64,000 nucleotides of DNA from an uncultured bacterium. Lineage in GTDB: Bacteria; Verrucomicrobiota; Lentisphaeria; Victivallales; UBA1829. This document shows positions 4,236-42,548 of the stretch, piece by piece (the stretch's first letter is position 1; every line of letters starts with the position of its first letter). The notes beneath the pieces were generated by a model. The model saw nothing but the letters and a program-made list of their open reading frames with translations. It had not been told where the DNA came from and ran no database searches. Location: assembly GCA_949297765.1 (NCBI GenBank), contig CASFTV010000004.1, positions 1-64,000 on the forward strand, read 5' to 3'. A program made the position numbers and the translations under genes.

Positions 4236-4268
4236 GGCACAAAATCTATATTTTATTGGCACAAAAAA
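4236..4268 (+). promoter_or_regulatory. Candidate AraC operator, copy 1
   Basis: Two direct repeats GGCACAAAA (4236-4244 and 4258-4266) with 22 bp period and an A/T-rich spacer. The second repeat ends 27 bp before the -10 box of the 4337 gene. Nearly the same arrangement, including the spacer sequence, recurs on the minus strand at 42519-42548. Two half sites about two helical turns apart next to -35 is the classical AraC-type activator layout; assigning it to the adjacent AraC protein is inference. Confidence 0.6.
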
Positions 4269-4271
4269 CTA

Positions 4272-4299
4272 TTGCTGTTTCCGGGTTTCGGAGTATAAT
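4272..4299 (+). promoter_or_regulatory. Promoter of the pseudopilin/glycosidase operon
   Basis: -35 TTGCTG (4272-4277), 16 bp spacer, -10 TATAAT (4294-4299). The string TTTCG(G)AGTATAATTAA around the -10 is shared with the promoter at 10161-10189 of the second glycosidase operon. Confidence 0.7.
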
Positions 4300-9067: not shown

Positions 9068-10063
9068 TCAGCGGATGATTCCGGAACGCACGGCGGCGGT
9101 GCTCTGCCGGAGAATCAGCTTCGGCTGAACAAGACGGTCCGGCGGAGTCTGGTGCGTCTCCACCATCTCGCAGAGCAGATTCAGAGACTCCTCCGCGAGC
9201 TTCGGGAAATCGGAAGCGACTGTGGTCCTCGGCGGATCCAGATATTCCGAAACGCCTTCGAATTCCCAGTCGATCAGAGAGATCTCCTCCGGGACGCGCA
9301 CCCGCATGGCGTGCAGCGCGGCGTTCACCTTGAGCGTATGCTGGGAATTGACACAGATCAGCGCCGTGCATCCCTGATGAAACACTTCATCAAACGCCCG
9401 GATCAGCAGCCGCTGATCGGTATGGGCAAATCCGGAAAAGAAAATGCACTGTTTCTCCGGTTCTGCACAGCCGAATCCGCGCATGGCGTTCAGAAATCCC
9501 TGCCAGCGGAGAGTCGCCTTGCGGCTTTCCGACGCCCGGCCTTCCAGAGAAACATAGCGGATATCCCGGTGTCCGAGATCCCAGAGATGCCGCACCGCCA
9601 TGGCCGCGCCGGCCGCGCTGTCCTGATTCACGGAACAGATGTTCTGGAGATGATTCGACGGTCCGTTGACCCACACCATCGGAAGAGGATACGCGGACGC
9701 AAGCTCCTCCAGATACGGATGACTGAGAACGAGAACTCCCCGCAGCGGACGCAGTTCCGCTCTCTGCTCCAGCTGTTTCCAGATCGGCACCATCTGGAGT
9801 CCGTGCCGTTCCAGCTCTTCAAAGACCGCGGAGAAAATCCCGGCATAATAGCCGTTCGCATCGCCGGGCGGGAATCCGATCAGAACGCCGACCGACCAGC
9901 GTCCGGAAGCCGGACGCATGTCATACGAGAGTGAACGCGCCGCCGCAAGGACTTTCCGCCGGGTGTCGTCGCCGATCCGGGGATCCGACGTCATCACCCG
10001 GGAAACCGTCGACTGCGACACACCCGCCGCCCGTGCCACATCGCGCCCGTTGACTCGTTTCAT
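9068..10063 (-). CDS. LacI family transcriptional regulator
   Basis: 331 aa. The N-terminal helix-turn-helix (GRDVARAAGVSQSTVSRVM, residues 5-23) is the canonical LacI DNA-binding domain. It is followed by a hinge helix and a periplasmic-binding-protein-like sugar-sensor domain (SVGVLIGFPPGDANGYYAGIF; LIDWEFEGVSEYLDPPRTTV). Start at the ATG at 10063, with GGAGG 8 bases upstream; a GTG 15 bases further up is less likely. Divergent from the glycosidase operon at 10214. The shared 150-base intergenic region holds palindromes suitable as its operator, so it probably controls that operon and itself in response to a sugar. Confidence 0.92.
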   Translation of the reverse strand: MKRVNGRDVARAAGVSQSTVSRVMTSDPRIGDDTRRKVLAAARSLSYDMRPASGRWSVGVLIGFPPGDANGYYAGIFSAVFEELERHGLQMVPIWKQLEQRAELRPLRGVLVLSHPYLEELASAYPLPMVWVNGPSNHLQNICSVNQDSAAGAAMAVRHLWDLGHRDIRYVSLEGRASESRKATLRWQGFLNAMRGFGCAEPEKQCIFFSGFAHTDQRLLIRAFDEVFHQGCTALICVNSQHTLKVNAALHAMRVRVPEEISLIDWEFEGVSEYLDPPRTTVASDFPKLAEESLNLLCEMVETHQTPPDRLVQPKLILRQSTAAVRSGIIR

Positions 10064-10089
10064 CTTCTCATCCTCCACCCTTCCCGCGG

Positions 10090-10118
10090 AATATAGCGCC
10101 GATTGAACTCATTTGCAA
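10090..10118 (-). promoter_or_regulatory. Promoter of the LacI regulator gene
   Basis: Minus strand: -35 TTGCAA (10113-10118), 17 bp spacer, -10 TATATT (10090-10095). The -35 lies inside the perfect palindrome ATTTGCAAAT (10111-10120), consistent with autoregulation. Confidence 0.6.
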
Positions 10119-10132
10119 ATTTTGATGCAAAA
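10111..10132. promoter_or_regulatory. Candidate LacI operator palindromes
   Basis: Two adjoining dyads: ATTTGCAAAT (10111-10120) and TTTTG-ATG-CAAAA (10120-10132). They sit between the LacI gene and the glycosidase operon, overlap the LacI -35 box and lie ~30 bp upstream of the divergent -35. Which of them is bound is not decidable by eye. Confidence 0.45.
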
Positions 10133-10160
10133 ATATGCACAAATCTCTCGGCTTCCTCCA

Positions 10161-10189
10161 TTGTTTTTTCGGGGTCTTTCGAGTATAAT
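10161..10189 (+). promoter_or_regulatory. Promoter of the GH5-like/pseudopilin/glycosidase operon
   Basis: -35 TTGTTT (10161-10166), 17 bp spacer, -10 TATAAT (10184-10189). The -10 context TTTCGAGTATAATTAA matches the promoter at 4272-4299. Confidence 0.65.
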
Positions 10190-10213
10190 TAAAAAAAACG
10201 AGGACGGAATGCA

Positions 10214-11566
10214 ATGAAGAAACGAGTGGATGTCAGCGGGCGGGACCCGCATTATTTTGAGAATGAAAACGGAACGACCTTTCTTCCGGTCGGCTGCAAT
10301 CTCAGCTTTCTGCGGGGAGCGGAAAACCTCCCGGAAGAGACCGTTCTGGAAACCTACCGCACATGGATGACGGAATTTGCCGCAAACGGCGGAAACTTCA
10401 TCCGGATCTGGCTCGGTGTTCCGTTTTTCGATGTAATGCCCGAACGGATCGGCTGTTACGACGAAACTGCGCTTTCCCATATCCGGTTCATCGTCGACCT
10501 GGCGGAAAAGCTCGGACTGCGGATCAAGTTCACAATGGAGCATTTCCGCAGCATCGAAGGAAAGAAAGAAGCCGAATCCTTTCCCGGCGTTGTCGATTTC
10601 AGAAAACCGCTGTATGCGGGAGTGGTTTCCACCATGCGGGAGTACCTGCGGTCGCCGGAATGCCGGAGCATCTATCTGGGGAAAGCGCGCTATCTGGCGG
10701 AAAGCGGACTCGGAGAATCCAAAGCCGTGATCGCCTGGGAACTCTGGAACGAAATCAACTCCATCGGTTCACTGGAGGAGATCAGGCCGTTCAGCGATTT
10801 TCTGCTGGCAGAGCTTCCGAAACTCTTTCCGCGCCAGATGATCGTGCAGAATCTCGGCAGTTTTTCCGGCTGTACCTCCTGCCGGAGCTACGACTACCTC
10901 GGAAGGCTCGGCAACAACGCATTCCTCCAGGTGCACCGGTATCTGGATCCGGGAGCGGAACTGGATGTCTGCCGCGGACCGATGGATCTGCTCTGTGCCG
11001 ACGCCATCCGGGAACTCCGGGACCGGAACAACCGGATTCCCGCGGTCCTGGCCGAATGCGGCGCGGTCGAAGCCAACCATGCGCGCTATTCCGATCTTTA
11101 CGAATCCGACCGGGAGGGAACTCTGCTGCACGATATGCTCTTTGCGCCCTTCTTTGCAGGGAGCGCCGGCTGCGGCCAGCCCTGGCACTGGGACCACATC
11201 TATCTGGCAAAGCACCATCTCTGGCACCACTTCGCCCGTTTTGCCGGAGCGGTGGAGGGAATTGATCCGGCAGCGGAACAGTTCGTCCCGTTCCGCACGG
11301 AAACCCGGCGGCTGCGCATCTACGGTCTCCGGGGAAACACGATGAATCTGCTCTGGTGCCGCGACAAGAGGAATGACTGGGAAAGCGAACTGGTCCGCCG
11401 CATCCCGCCGGAACTGCTGCACGGAGAGCGGATTCCGGTCGCACATTCCGGCGAGTGCGTCTGTTTTCTTCCCTGGGAGAACAGGTCCGTCGCCGTTCCC
11501 GTGAAGGACTTTTGGTGCGAACTGCCGGACTTCCGGCGTTCCATCGTCGTCCGTCAGGCTCACTGA
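10214..11566 (+). CDS. GH5-like glycoside hydrolase (clan GH-A), cytoplasmic
   Basis: 450 aa, no signal peptide. A TIM-barrel glycosidase of the cellulase/mannanase (GH5) type is indicated by FIRIWLGVP in an early strand, AWELWNEIN with Glu180 as acid/base candidate, and VLAECGAVE with Glu281 as nucleophile candidate. A small beta domain probably closes the C-terminus. Lack of an export signal suggests action on imported oligosaccharides. First gene of an operon with a pseudopilin and a second large glycosidase-like protein, divergent from a LacI regulator. Substrate unknown; family assignment is by motif only. Confidence 0.8.
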   Translation: MKKRVDVSGRDPHYFENENGTTFLPVGCNLSFLRGAENLPEETVLETYRTWMTEFAANGGNFIRIWLGVPFFDVMPERIGCYDETALSHIRFIVDLAEKLGLRIKFTMEHFRSIEGKKEAESFPGVVDFRKPLYAGVVSTMREYLRSPECRSIYLGKARYLAESGLGESKAVIAWELWNEINSIGSLEEIRPFSDFLLAELPKLFPRQMIVQNLGSFSGCTSCRSYDYLGRLGNNAFLQVHRYLDPGAELDVCRGPMDLLCADAIRELRDRNNRIPAVLAECGAVEANHARYSDLYESDREGTLLHDMLFAPFFAGSAGCGQPWHWDHIYLAKHHLWHHFARFAGAVEGIDPAAEQFVPFRTETRRLRIYGLRGNTMNLLWCRDKRNDWESELVRRIPPELLHGERIPVAHSGECVCFLPWENRSVAVPVKDFWCELPDFRRSIVVRQAH

Positions 11567-11617
11567 ATGAGAATTGACGCAGAACAGCGTTTCATAAAAA
11601 CAAGGAGAACACGCATC

Positions 11618-12394
11618 ATGCAAACAAGGCGGAAACTCAGATTCACTCTGATAGAGCTGATCATCGTTGTTGCCATCATCGCCATCCTGGTGGCGCTGCT
11701 GCTTCCGGCGCTCTACCGGGCGCGCAATGTGGCGCGGGGAATCAGCTGCAAAAACAATCTGAAACAGGTCGGAATCACCATTCATCTGTATGTCGGGAAC
11801 AACAACGATTTCTTTTTTCCGTATGTTCAGCCGGACGCGCACTGGACCGCGCGGATGGTTGCGGACAAATATCTGACCAAAAATCAGCTGAAATGCCCGG
11901 AGCGCTCCCGGATTCTGCCAAGCTCCACCTGGTACCGGGACTTCTGGGACAACCCGAAAATGAAACTCGACTCCCTCGCCGACAGCGACTGGACCATCTG
12001 TGATTACGGAATCAATTACAAATATGTTGCGCCGGCCGCCGACGGAATCCGTCTCTCGATGTTCCGGCGGAGCACCGACACGGTCATGGTGGTCGAGTCA
12101 GCCCGGAAAAGCCGCGAACTTGCCGATCCCGCGCCGCTCGGATACTACACGGTGAACAACTCCTACTCCGCACCCGGATCCGGCGAAACGGTCTGGCCCG
12201 CACACAACGGACTGACCGAATGCAATGTCGTCTATGTGGACGGCCATGTTCTCGGAGCGCGCTCCATGCGCATCGGCGAAGAGGGGGCGAAACAGCTCCT
12301 CGCCAATCCGGGATCGCCGCTCTACGGACCGTGGGTCGATTCCACCTACCGCAACGATGCAAGCAAATGGGTCCGTCATGATGGAGTGTTCTGA
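11618..12394 (+). CDS. Pseudopilin-like protein with prepilin N-terminus
   Basis: 258 aa. Leader MQTRRKLR is followed by [24 protein letters not shown], a textbook prepilin helix with Glu at +5. The globular part ([21 protein letters not shown]) resembles the pseudopilin at 4337. Near the C-terminus, [16 protein letters not shown] resembles the His...Asp-Gly motif common in this family. I start it at 11618 because AAGGAG lies 10 bases upstream; the open frame reaches back to 11567 without a ribosome site. It sits between two glycosidase genes of one operon, with one base to the next start. Exact function unknown. Confidence 0.88.
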
Positions 12395-12395
12395 A

Positions 12396-15300
12396 ATGAA
12401 AAAAAGATTTTTTCTCTCCCTCTTTCTGCTGATTCCGGCGCTTTGCATGGCGGCCGGCAAACCGCTCTACAAAGAAAAATTCCGTCAGTTCCAGCTTCCG
12501 GGAACCATCGAAGCCGAAGCAGGAACCGTTGAACTGACTCTGAATCCCGCCAAGCCAGCCTCGGAATTCCTGAATGAGTGGGCATTTGCATTTTCCGTGG
12601 TGCCGGCGCGGGAGGGGAACGCATCCGAACGCAATCTGCTCGGGCTGTGCATCTCCAGCGGAGAACACGGACTGCGCGGACTGCTCGGTGTCGCGCGAAA
12701 TGAACAGCAGACCGCCCGCGTCCACATTCCGAATGAACAGGTGTTCGAAAAAGGAAAGGCGGTGAATGTGGCGCTGAGCTGGGGAAAGGCCGGACTGATT
12801 CTCAGCGTCAACGGAAAGGAACTCTCCCGCGCGAAATTCTCCGGGAAACTTTCGCCGCTGCCGGGAGGATTCATCGTCTCGGCGGGACCGCCGTTCTTTG
12901 TCAGCGCGCTGCGGATCTCCGCCGCCCAGCTGCGGAACGCGGAACTGGACGCAACGCCCGACACGCCGTTCTCCGCGGGAAAATCCACAACGCTCCTGGC
13001 GGATTTCCGTTCGGGAAAAGAGCAGCTTCTGACTTCGCCGGATCAGAAGGGAATCACTCTTCTTCCGGTCTGGACGTTCGATGACGCCGTCTCCTGCGGG
13101 AACGAACCGTCGATTCTGCGCCTTTCCGGAGCCAACTTCTCCGGGGAGGACCGGGAAGTCCGCGTGCGGATCTCCGGAAAGGAAACCGGTGGAGAAGCTC
13201 TCGCGGAAACAGAACACATCATCCGTCTTCCCGCCCGGACCCGTCAGAAGGAGTTCCGGATTGAACTCCCGCTGAAAAATCCGGGTCACTACGCCCTCTC
13301 GGCGGACATCGGAGGCGAACGGTACGACTTCGCCCGCGCCCGGCTGAACATGCCCGATGCACAGCTGCCGGACGGACGCTTCGCCGACTATATCGGACAC
13401 CATCTGTTCGATCTTCCGGAACTCCTTGCAAAACTCGGAATCCGCAACAGCCGCAGCGACGCTTTTCACTGGTTTCTTGTCGAACCGGAAAAAGGGAAAT
13501 TCGACTGGAGATGGAGCGATGCGATCGTGGAACGCAACCGGAAAGCAGGCATCCGGATGCTCGGCATTCTGGGCTCTCCTCCGGTCTGGGCGGCCGATCC
13601 GACCGTTGTTCCGACGCACAAGAACGCCTACATGTCCGCGCGGCGGAAACCCGCCAGTCCGGATGACTGGGAACGCTATGTCCACGCGGTCGCCGCACGG
13701 TATCGCGGCAAGGTCGCGGCATGGGAAATCTGGAACGAAGTTGACTGGCATCCGCCCGTTCCCGCGGCCAGTTTCTCCGGCACCACCGCCGACTATCTGG
13801 AGCTTCTGAAACGGGCGCACCGGGCAATCCGCTCCGCCGACCCCGATGCGAAAATCCTGGTCAGCGGATTCGGATACGGAACTGCCTGCGACAATAAAAT
13901 GCCGTTCGATCTGCTGAAAATGGGCGCCGCACAGTACTGCGACTTCTACAATGTCCACTCCTATCAGGGACTCAAGGGAATCGGGGAACTGAAACGCGCG
14001 GTGGCAGAGGCGCGTCCGGGGATGAAGCTCTGGCAGTCCGAACAGATGTGGCACACCATCTCCGATCCGGCCATGCAGGCAAAACTGACCGCCGCAATCC
14101 AGTTCTGGTTCATTGAGGAGGGATTTGAGAAATATTTCAATTTCGGAGAGGATTTCTTTTTCTCGCATCAGACGCTGTCGCCGATTCCGTCGCTTCCTGC
14201 GCTGACCTTTGCACAGGCGATGCTGCGCAAGTGCGACCGCTATACCGGACCGGCGACCTCGCTTCCGCTTGATCTGCGTCACACCTTCCGGCGGACCGAC
14301 GGAAGCGTCCTGACCGTTCTCGGACGGACCTCGGCACCCGCGATCTGGGAACTGACAGGAGATGTCCGCGCCGTCTACGATCTTTATGGACGCAGCGTGA
14401 AGAGGACTCTCTCCGGCGGAAAATGGCGGACGCAGCACCCGACAGAAATTCTGTATGTCGTCAGCGGAAAACCGCTCACCGGAATCCGGGAAATTGCGGA
14501 AACGGTCAACTTCTGTCCGAATCCCTCGTTTGAGGAGCTCTCGGGCGACGTGGCAACCGGAGGACTCGGCAATGCGCTCCCGCTCCAATGGCAGCTCCGC
14601 GAGAAAACCGCCGATCCGAACGGCCGCATTGCCGTCACGCGGGACGCGGCAACCGGGAAGTATGCTCTGAGCCTGACCTCCTCCGGCGCCGGACGCGTCT
14701 ACCTCTTCTTCGACGCCCGCATTCCCGGACCCGACCGGGGAATCCTGAGCGGCAGCTTCAAAAATACCGGCGACAAACCCGTCTCCCCCTTCTTCGACGT
14801 GTTCGACCGGTACAGCGGCTACTTCAAACGCTATCATACCTCCCCGGTTCCGCCGCGAAGCGGATTTGTCCGCCGCGAAGCGGAAATCGCGATTCCGAAA
14901 AGCGATTCCACGCTGGTCTTCTGCGTCGGCATTGAGCAGGCGGGGACCCTGATCGCGGACGACATCTCGCTGATGAGACTCTCCGACACCCCCCTCTCCT
15001 CGTGCACCCCGCTTGCCCTCCCCTCTCCTGCGGAAAACCGCGGAGCCACCCGCGGAAAAGAGCACATCGACACGCGGGAACTGGGCAAGGCTCTGCACGG
15101 CGACCGGACCATCCAGCGGATTCCCTTCCGCTTTTCCGGATCACCCGTACTCCTCTCTTCCGGAGCGTGGAAAGGCGTGCACGGGAAGAGTCTGACTCTC
15201 TCTCTTCCGACCCCCCGGGTGGAAACGCTCTATCTGCTTGCAAGCGCCGCCTATGTCCCCGGGAAGGCGGATCTTCTGGGGCGAGTCACGTTTATCCTGC

Positions 15301-15548
15301 GCGACGGGAAGCGGTCCGCGCCGCTCGAACTGCGGAACAAACGGGATCTTCGCGACTGGTTCCTCGCCTCGGACAGCCGCGGCATTCCGCCCGCTTTCCG
15401 CTTTGTCACGCCGCGGATGCTGGAATACGGCCTTTTTCTTGTGAAACTGGACAATCCCGTCCGGACACAGGATGCCGCGGCTGTCGAAATTGAAGCATCC
15501 GGCGACGCCGTTCTGATTCACGCCGGAGCGACGATCCGCGCAAAATAG
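12396..15548 (+). CDS. Large exported glycoside-hydrolase-like protein
   Basis: 1050 aa with signal peptide (KKRFFLSLFLLIPALCMAAGK). The N-terminal ~250 residues are a concanavalin-like or CBM-like beta domain, followed by a second beta domain. A clan GH-A barrel at about 330-640 includes AAWEIWNEVDWHPP (Glu448, acid/base candidate) and LWQSEQMWH (Glu549, nucleophile candidate), most like GH39-type enzymes. At least one more beta-sandwich module with NPSFEELSG at its start, typical of a CBM, occupies about 700-860. Start chosen at 12396 with GGAG 9 bases upstream. Third gene of the LacI-linked operon; substrate and GH family unassigned. Confidence 0.8.
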   Translation: MKKRFFLSLFLLIPALCMAAGKPLYKEKFRQFQLPGTIEAEAGTVELTLNPAKPASEFLNEWAFAFSVVPAREGNASERNLLGLCISSGEHGLRGLLGVARNEQQTARVHIPNEQVFEKGKAVNVALSWGKAGLILSVNGKELSRAKFSGKLSPLPGGFIVSAGPPFFVSALRISAAQLRNAELDATPDTPFSAGKSTTLLADFRSGKEQLLTSPDQKGITLLPVWTFDDAVSCGNEPSILRLSGANFSGEDREVRVRISGKETGGEALAETEHIIRLPARTRQKEFRIELPLKNPGHYALSADIGGERYDFARARLNMPDAQLPDGRFADYIGHHLFDLPELLAKLGIRNSRSDAFHWFLVEPEKGKFDWRWSDAIVERNRKAGIRMLGILGSPPVWAADPTVVPTHKNAYMSARRKPASPDDWERYVHAVAARYRGKVAAWEIWNEVDWHPPVPAASFSGTTADYLELLKRAHRAIRSADPDAKILVSGFGYGTACDNKMPFDLLKMGAAQYCDFYNVHSYQGLKGIGELKRAVAEARPGMKLWQSEQMWHTISDPAMQAKLTAAIQFWFIEEGFEKYFNFGEDFFFSHQTLSPIPSLPALTFAQAMLRKCDRYTGPATSLPLDLRHTFRRTDGSVLTVLGRTSAPAIWELTGDVRAVYDLYGRSVKRTLSGGKWRTQHPTEILYVVSGKPLTGIREIAETVNFCPNPSFEELSGDVATGGLGNALPLQWQLREKTADPNGRIAVTRDAATGKYALSLTSSGAGRVYLFFDARIPGPDRGILSGSFKNTGDKPVSPFFDVFDRYSGYFKRYHTSPVPPRSGFVRREAEIAIPKSDSTLVFCVGIEQAGTLIADDISLMRLSDTPLSSCTPLALPSPAENRGATRGKEHIDTRELGKALHGDRTIQRIPFRFSGSPVLLSSGAWKGVHGKSLTLSLPTPRVETLYLLASAAYVPGKADLLGRVTFILRDGKRSAPLELRNKRDLRDWFLASDSRGIPPAFRFVTPRMLEYGLFLVKLDNPVRTQDAAAVEIEASGDAVLIHAGATIRAK

Positions 15549-42486: not shown

Positions 42487-42548
42487 AATATAATGCTGTT
42501 TCCATGAGAAAAAATTCGTTTTGTGCCAAAAAATATAAAGTTTGTGTC
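42487..42548 (-). promoter_or_regulatory. Candidate AraC operator (copy 2) and promoter of the GH39-like gene
   Basis: Read on the minus strand: GACACAAA (42541-42548), A/T-rich spacer, GGCACAAAA (42519-42527), then 26 bp to a -10 TATATT (42487-42492). Repeat period 21 bp. Sequence, spacer and distance to -10 match the element at 4236-4299. On the plus strand the half sites read as TTTG-N3-CAAA dyads. A -35 is not clear, as expected for an activated promoter. Confidence 0.6.

Follow-up and report, generated by a model that had tools for sequence, protein, structure and literature searches.

Two probable AraC-type tandem operators in a Lentisphaeria genome and the relation of half-site spacing to regulator phylogeny

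Do two promoters that carry closely similar tandem repeats answer to one regulator, or is each read by its own? The question arises in the window, by which we mean the whole stretch of 64,000 nucleotides analysed here, where one pair of repeats (copy 1) precedes an operon with a pseudopilin-like gene and a second pair (copy 2), on the other strand, precedes a GH39-family gene. The genome lies within the Lentisphaeria, its named relatives being Oligosphaera, Victivallales and Lentisphaerae records, and contains 148 HTH_18 (AraC-type) matches in 4.23 Mb.

Geometry and surroundings of the two sites

The repeats in front of both promoters and their distances to the -10 elements (27 and 26 bp), as described in the first-pass annotation, could be confirmed, and so could the standard AraC activator layout: tandem direct half-sites 22 or 21 bp apart, the proximal one adjoining the -35 region, and a -10 element 36 or 35 bp from it (Table 1). 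The -35-like element of copy 1 is weak, and a TTG at roughly its place recurs in sites of relatives. The pattern GRCACAAA-N11..16-GRCACAAA occurs exactly twice in the 4.23-Mb genome, as copies 1 and 2, with no occurrence of its reversed-pattern control; in Markov-1 versions of the window 0.005 pairs are expected on average, a post hoc figure, the sites themselves having supplied the pattern. Copies 1 and 2 are very probably AraC-type activator operators, for which binding and sugar-dependent activation are predicted. A sigma-54 reading (TGGCAC...TTGC) was rejected, the element-to-element distance being wrong as judged by eye, and an Rfam scan of the window returned one tRNA only, with a riboswitch at neither promoter.

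Table 1. Positions of the sites and genes discussed (window positions unless a contig is named)
Feature	Position	Strand	Remarks
AraC-family regulator P0001	3128..4045	-	divergent to copy 1; start codon chosen by eye
Copy 1, whole site GGCACAAAATCTATATTTTATTGGCACAAA	4236-4265	+	tandem repeats, first G to first G 22 bp
Copy 1, distal half-site GGCACAAA	4236..4243	+	
Copy 1, proximal half-site GGCACAAA	4258..4265	+	22 bp from distal half-site
Copy 1, weak -35-like TTGCTG	4272..4277	+	14 bp past proximal G
Copy 1, -10 TATAAT	4294..4299	+	36 bp from proximal G; 27 bp after second repeat
Pseudopilin-like P0002	4337..5074	+	first gene of copy 1 operon
P0003, 1281 aa	5129..8974	+	N-terminal hydrophobic signal-like segment, C-terminal CBM9 domain
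GH39-family enzyme P0004	41010..42428	-	putative target of copy 2; signal peptide not seen
Copy 2, -10 TATATT	42487..42492	-	35 bp from proximal G; 26 bp after second repeat
Copy 2, proximal half-site GGCACAAA	42520..42527	-	21 bp from distal half-site
Copy 2, distal half-site GACACAAA	42541..42548	-	
Copy 2, whole site GACACAAACTTTATATTTTTTGGCACAAA	42548-42520	-	spacing 21 bp
GH42 operator, contig C16	C16:75628-75691		
Orphan AraC candidate, contig C11	~C11:37.66-38.52 kb		counterparts in all four congeners (own_C11/G034_C95/G033_C384/G035_C111)

The C-terminal part of P0001 is an AraC/XylS helix-turn-helix domain (HTH_18, PF12833; 62.6 bits, cut-off 33.6, E 4.2e-17), and the protein matches the structures of MarA, Rob, SoxS and XylR; residues 1-200 gave no Pfam match. 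The proposal that the targets are carbohydrate genes held where Pfam made glycoside hydrolase calls, GH39 included, and the putative copy 2 target is a GH39-family enzyme in which a signal peptide was not seen. It was not supported for the supposed glycosidase of the copy 1 operon: in Pfam, NCBIfam and PDB sequence searches P0003 gave CBM9 as its sole Pfam hit and no PDB match. Elsewhere in the window (9068-15548) we observed a second module of regulator, pseudopilin and glycosidase, comprising a LacI-type gene (9068-10078, minus strand), then 10214-11566, a DUF1559 pseudopilin-like gene (11567-12394) and a 1107-aa GH42/GH10-like ORF (12225-15548).

The operator across the genome and the order

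The general layout is TGGCA-N16/17-TGGCA, followed by a -10 element some 36 bp on from its second copy; it is found again throughout the order, in most cases next to a gene that belongs to one AraC subfamily. Over 23 sites of this and related genomes, a set chosen partly because its members fitted, the proximal G lies mostly 36 bp from the -10 (range 34-39). Within this genome, pattern search placed TGGCA pairs in promoters before genes of GH16 (contigs C7 and C48), GH36 (C26), DUF6259 (C13) and GH42 (C16), and the pairs on C7, C13, C26 and C48 adjoin AraC genes. Profile searches started from 15 sites and were continued with a 66-position profile of 22 operators that excluded copies 1 and 2. 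This held-out profile recovers copy 1 at an E-value of 3.6e-8 and copy 2 at 3.1e-4 per genome; at least 15 of the 20 other hits listed at E <= 1e-3 in the family adjoin an AraC gene, and an HTH_18 gene is present at 17 of the 21 held-out loci inspected. Across the order the profile matches in 51 of 137 genomes at E <= 0.01, a threshold whose stated value implies about one chance match.

The first-pass annotation had asked whether a matrix scan would find the motif scattered at random. The profile finds both copies, and its hits lie mostly beside AraC genes; the bare pair TGGCA-N16-18-TGGCA is found 14 times in the genome, below the 38 occurrences of its reversed-pattern control. The operator signal is location, not number. 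Likewise, a spacing spectrum of TGGCA alone over the AraC genes of this genome is weak, because most of them use other half-sites, while a count of direct repeats upstream of AraC genes, irrespective of their letters, has a peak at spacings of 21 and 22 bp (13 and 8 repeats, most other spacings having 1-4); this spectrum is also raised at 15 and 27 bp, probably through coding triplets. A different arrangement was noticed at G000:C39:29080-29106 (L077), apparently intergenic, where three TGGCA on the minus strand succeed one another every 11 bp, a geometry unlike that of the usual AraC pairs.

The spacing of the half-sites goes with the phylogeny of the AraC proteins: on a tree of 51 AraC sequences it changes twice, against at least seven changes in each of 300 label shuffles (mean 10.6). 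GH39 orthologues in the related genomes G014 and G006 have 22-bp operators and a divergent AraC of another clade, so the target gene does not determine the spacing. For the letters of the half-site, the HTH1 segment offers one comparison: SRRxFFRxW is nearly identical in many TGGCA-type paralogues, and a paralogue on contig C6 of this genome has SRRSFYFYW. Ahead of the gene of this paralogue (L212, G000:C6:133600-137000) stands a perfect repeat of ten letters in which the half-sites read CTGCACA, with a spacing of 21 bp, and the -10 TATAAT follows at about the distance found in TGGCA sites. This single correlation fits a reading of the half-site by the HTH1 helix.

Regulators of copy 1 and copy 2

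At copy 1, the nearest homologues of P0001 among the matches listed (G018, G033, G034 and G035; about 40% identity) show TGGCACAAAA...TGxCAC between the divergent genes, with 22 bp from repeat to repeat and the -10 element at 36-37; pseudopilin operons or putative polysaccharide enzymes lie downstream. We take this recurrence of the same operator in the same place as a phylogenetic footprint that marks P0001 as the regulator of copy 1, so that the annotated control of copy 1 by its divergent AraC gains support, and P0001 very probably owns this site. In G034 (C36:676-1516) the match to a P0001-like AraC gene is split in two, at 41% and 48% identity, and this gene may be what is left of a P0001 counterpart after decay.

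Copy 2 gave a different picture. No AraC gene adjoins it in this genome, and its link to an AraC gene comes through the GH39 orthologues of G002 and L316, which have a 21-bp TGGCA operator and divergent AraC genes 55% identical to each other, while copy 1 is linked directly. In letters, copy 2 agrees with the GH42 operator of this genome at 24 of 29 positions and with those of the congeners G033, G034 and G035 at 26 of 29, against 21 of 29 for copy 1, no higher than its agreement with the C48 operator. The string CTTTATATTTTTTGGCACA is identical in the GH39 and GH42 operators of this genome and in the GH42 operator of G033. The GH42 operator lies about 70-100 bp before its gene and is kept in all four congener species (this genome, G033, G034 and G035). 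Copy 2 is thus no more like copy 1 than it is like other operators of the genome, and the two copies differ in spacing by 1 bp, a difference to which the first-pass annotation did not point and which appears to matter for which AraC reads each copy.

Relatives vary in what stands before GH39. In G033, G034, G035 and G017-G019 the gene follows an IclR-type gene, and no TGGCA-type operator was seen at these loci. In G002 the end of an IclR-like protein precedes GH42 (loci of the two IclR arrangements: L224, L225, L226, L282, L298, L300, L314). GH42 orthologues outside the genus showed no AraC adjacency. Given the varied GH39 arrangements, copy 2 is lineage-specific here, and its regulator is not simply readable from relatives. 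GH39 and GH42 seem to trade regulators between species, as would be expected if both act in one pathway.

As a regulator of copy 2 we put forward, as a hypothesis, the orphan AraC on contig C11, the best candidate among the AraC matches listed. It is present in four species, has no site of its own (no tandem operator was found beside AraC genes of the C11 group) and has a weakly placed position in the tree; in BLAST, the GH39-linked AraC of G002 finds its best congener match in the counterpart G033_C384. In approximately unbiased (AU) tests, joining the C11 group with this G002 protein was not rejected (p 0.42), nor was joining the G002 protein with the P0001 clade (p 0.20), and joining the P0001 clade with the C11 group was weakly rejected (p 0.033). 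A stronger rejection, of the P0001 clade together with G002_C375 (p 0.0016), was discarded, as that test left out the sister of G002_C375; with the sister and L316 included, p is 0.20.

The arrangement which we consider fairly probable is therefore divided, with copy 1 belonging to P0001 and copy 2 to a separate GH39 and GH42 regulon under a paralogous AraC that would prefer 21-bp spacing. The first-pass annotation had instead joined both promoters under one AraC, so that P0001 would bind both copies in a regulon of two operons, pseudopilin/CBM9 and GH39. Such a link may exist, but a separate GH39 and GH42 regulon is likelier, and we regard the link as doubtful. It would account for both copies being the only GRCACAAA pairs in the genome and lying within one 64-kb stretch, in which P0001 is the nearest AraC of the right subfamily. 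AraC-type proteins can, moreover, tolerate a shifted or altered half-site arrangement, and Carra and Schleif reportedly found in 1993 that AraC tolerates shifted half-sites, which makes a spacing of 21 instead of 22 bp compatible with P0001 at copy 2. However, all seven operators of the P0001 clade have 22 bp, and the GH39 operator is nearer to the GH42 operators, which are present in G033 and G035, two genomes whose listed matches include no close counterpart of P0001 (best about 40%); on these grounds the joint regulon was not supported.

That ownership is not exclusive at all, with paralogous AraC proteins cross-talking on TGGCA half-sites and copies 1 and 2 being shared by a network, is in our view unlikely: the near identity of the HTH1 segment across many paralogues and at least five AraC-linked TGGCA operators in this genome speak for it, but the clade-specific spacing points to separated specificities. 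Taking separation further, spacing (21 or 22 bp) and flanking bases might form an inherited specificity code that keeps regulons apart in genomes of about 150 paralogues, many of which share TGGCA, a generalisation we think improbable as it stands. Finally, an A/T-rich promoter with a coincidental octamer repeat has the frequency of the octamer on its side, GGCACAAA alone being seen 4 times in the window against 1.6 expected, but the held-out profile E-values, the adjacency of AraC genes and the conservation in relatives render mere chance highly implausible.

Proposed mechanism and relation to known systems

We propose a model in which the activators of both sites belong to one AraC subfamily, expanded in this Lentisphaeria order. 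Each monomer of an AraC dimer would contact one TGGCA(C)AAA half-site, both on one face of the DNA, and the proximal monomer would stand against the weak -35, the -10 lying some 36 bp past the proximal half-site, so that RNA polymerase would be recruited when sugar is bound. At copy 1, P0001 would switch on the pseudopilin/CBM9 operon, while GH39 and the GH42 gene on contig C16 would be read by a paralogous AraC with a 21-bp preference, for which the C11 orphan is the best candidate. We infer the steps of this model, namely binding, activation, the sugar signal and the AraC acting at copy 2, from what is known of the AraC family.

The closest parallel is E. coli AraC, whose mechanism at araI1/araI2 is described in PMC6018408. 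Shared with AraC at araI1/araI2 of araBAD are the helix-turn-helix family and tandem direct half-sites about two turns apart next to the -35, and, as is generally known of araBAD, the divergent regulator gene and a target in sugar catabolism. In contrast to E. coli AraC, the half-site is TGGCAC-AAA, the spacing is 21 or 22 bp depending on the clade, and Pfam recognises nothing in the N-terminal part of P0001. Among named NCBIfam models, that of RhaS comes closest to the helix-turn-helix part of P0001, with a score of 66.8 bits, far short of the 288-bit cut-off; P0001 resembles RhaS and other AraC/XylS sugar activators in its C-terminal part only, and the genomic context differs. In the open-licence PMC literature searched, no description of AraC operators from Lentisphaeria was found.

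The analysis provides a computationally validated and searchable operator for one AraC subfamily, in a phylum for which the literature searched describes none, and links regulators to GH39, GH42, GH36, GH16 and DUF6259 targets from sequence alone. The regulon itself is new but of a known type, and the general operator with its relation of spacing to phylogeny is of greater interest. Since spacing tracks regulator phylogeny, a paralogue can be proposed for a distant target, and how a large family of regulators avoids cross-talk becomes testable.
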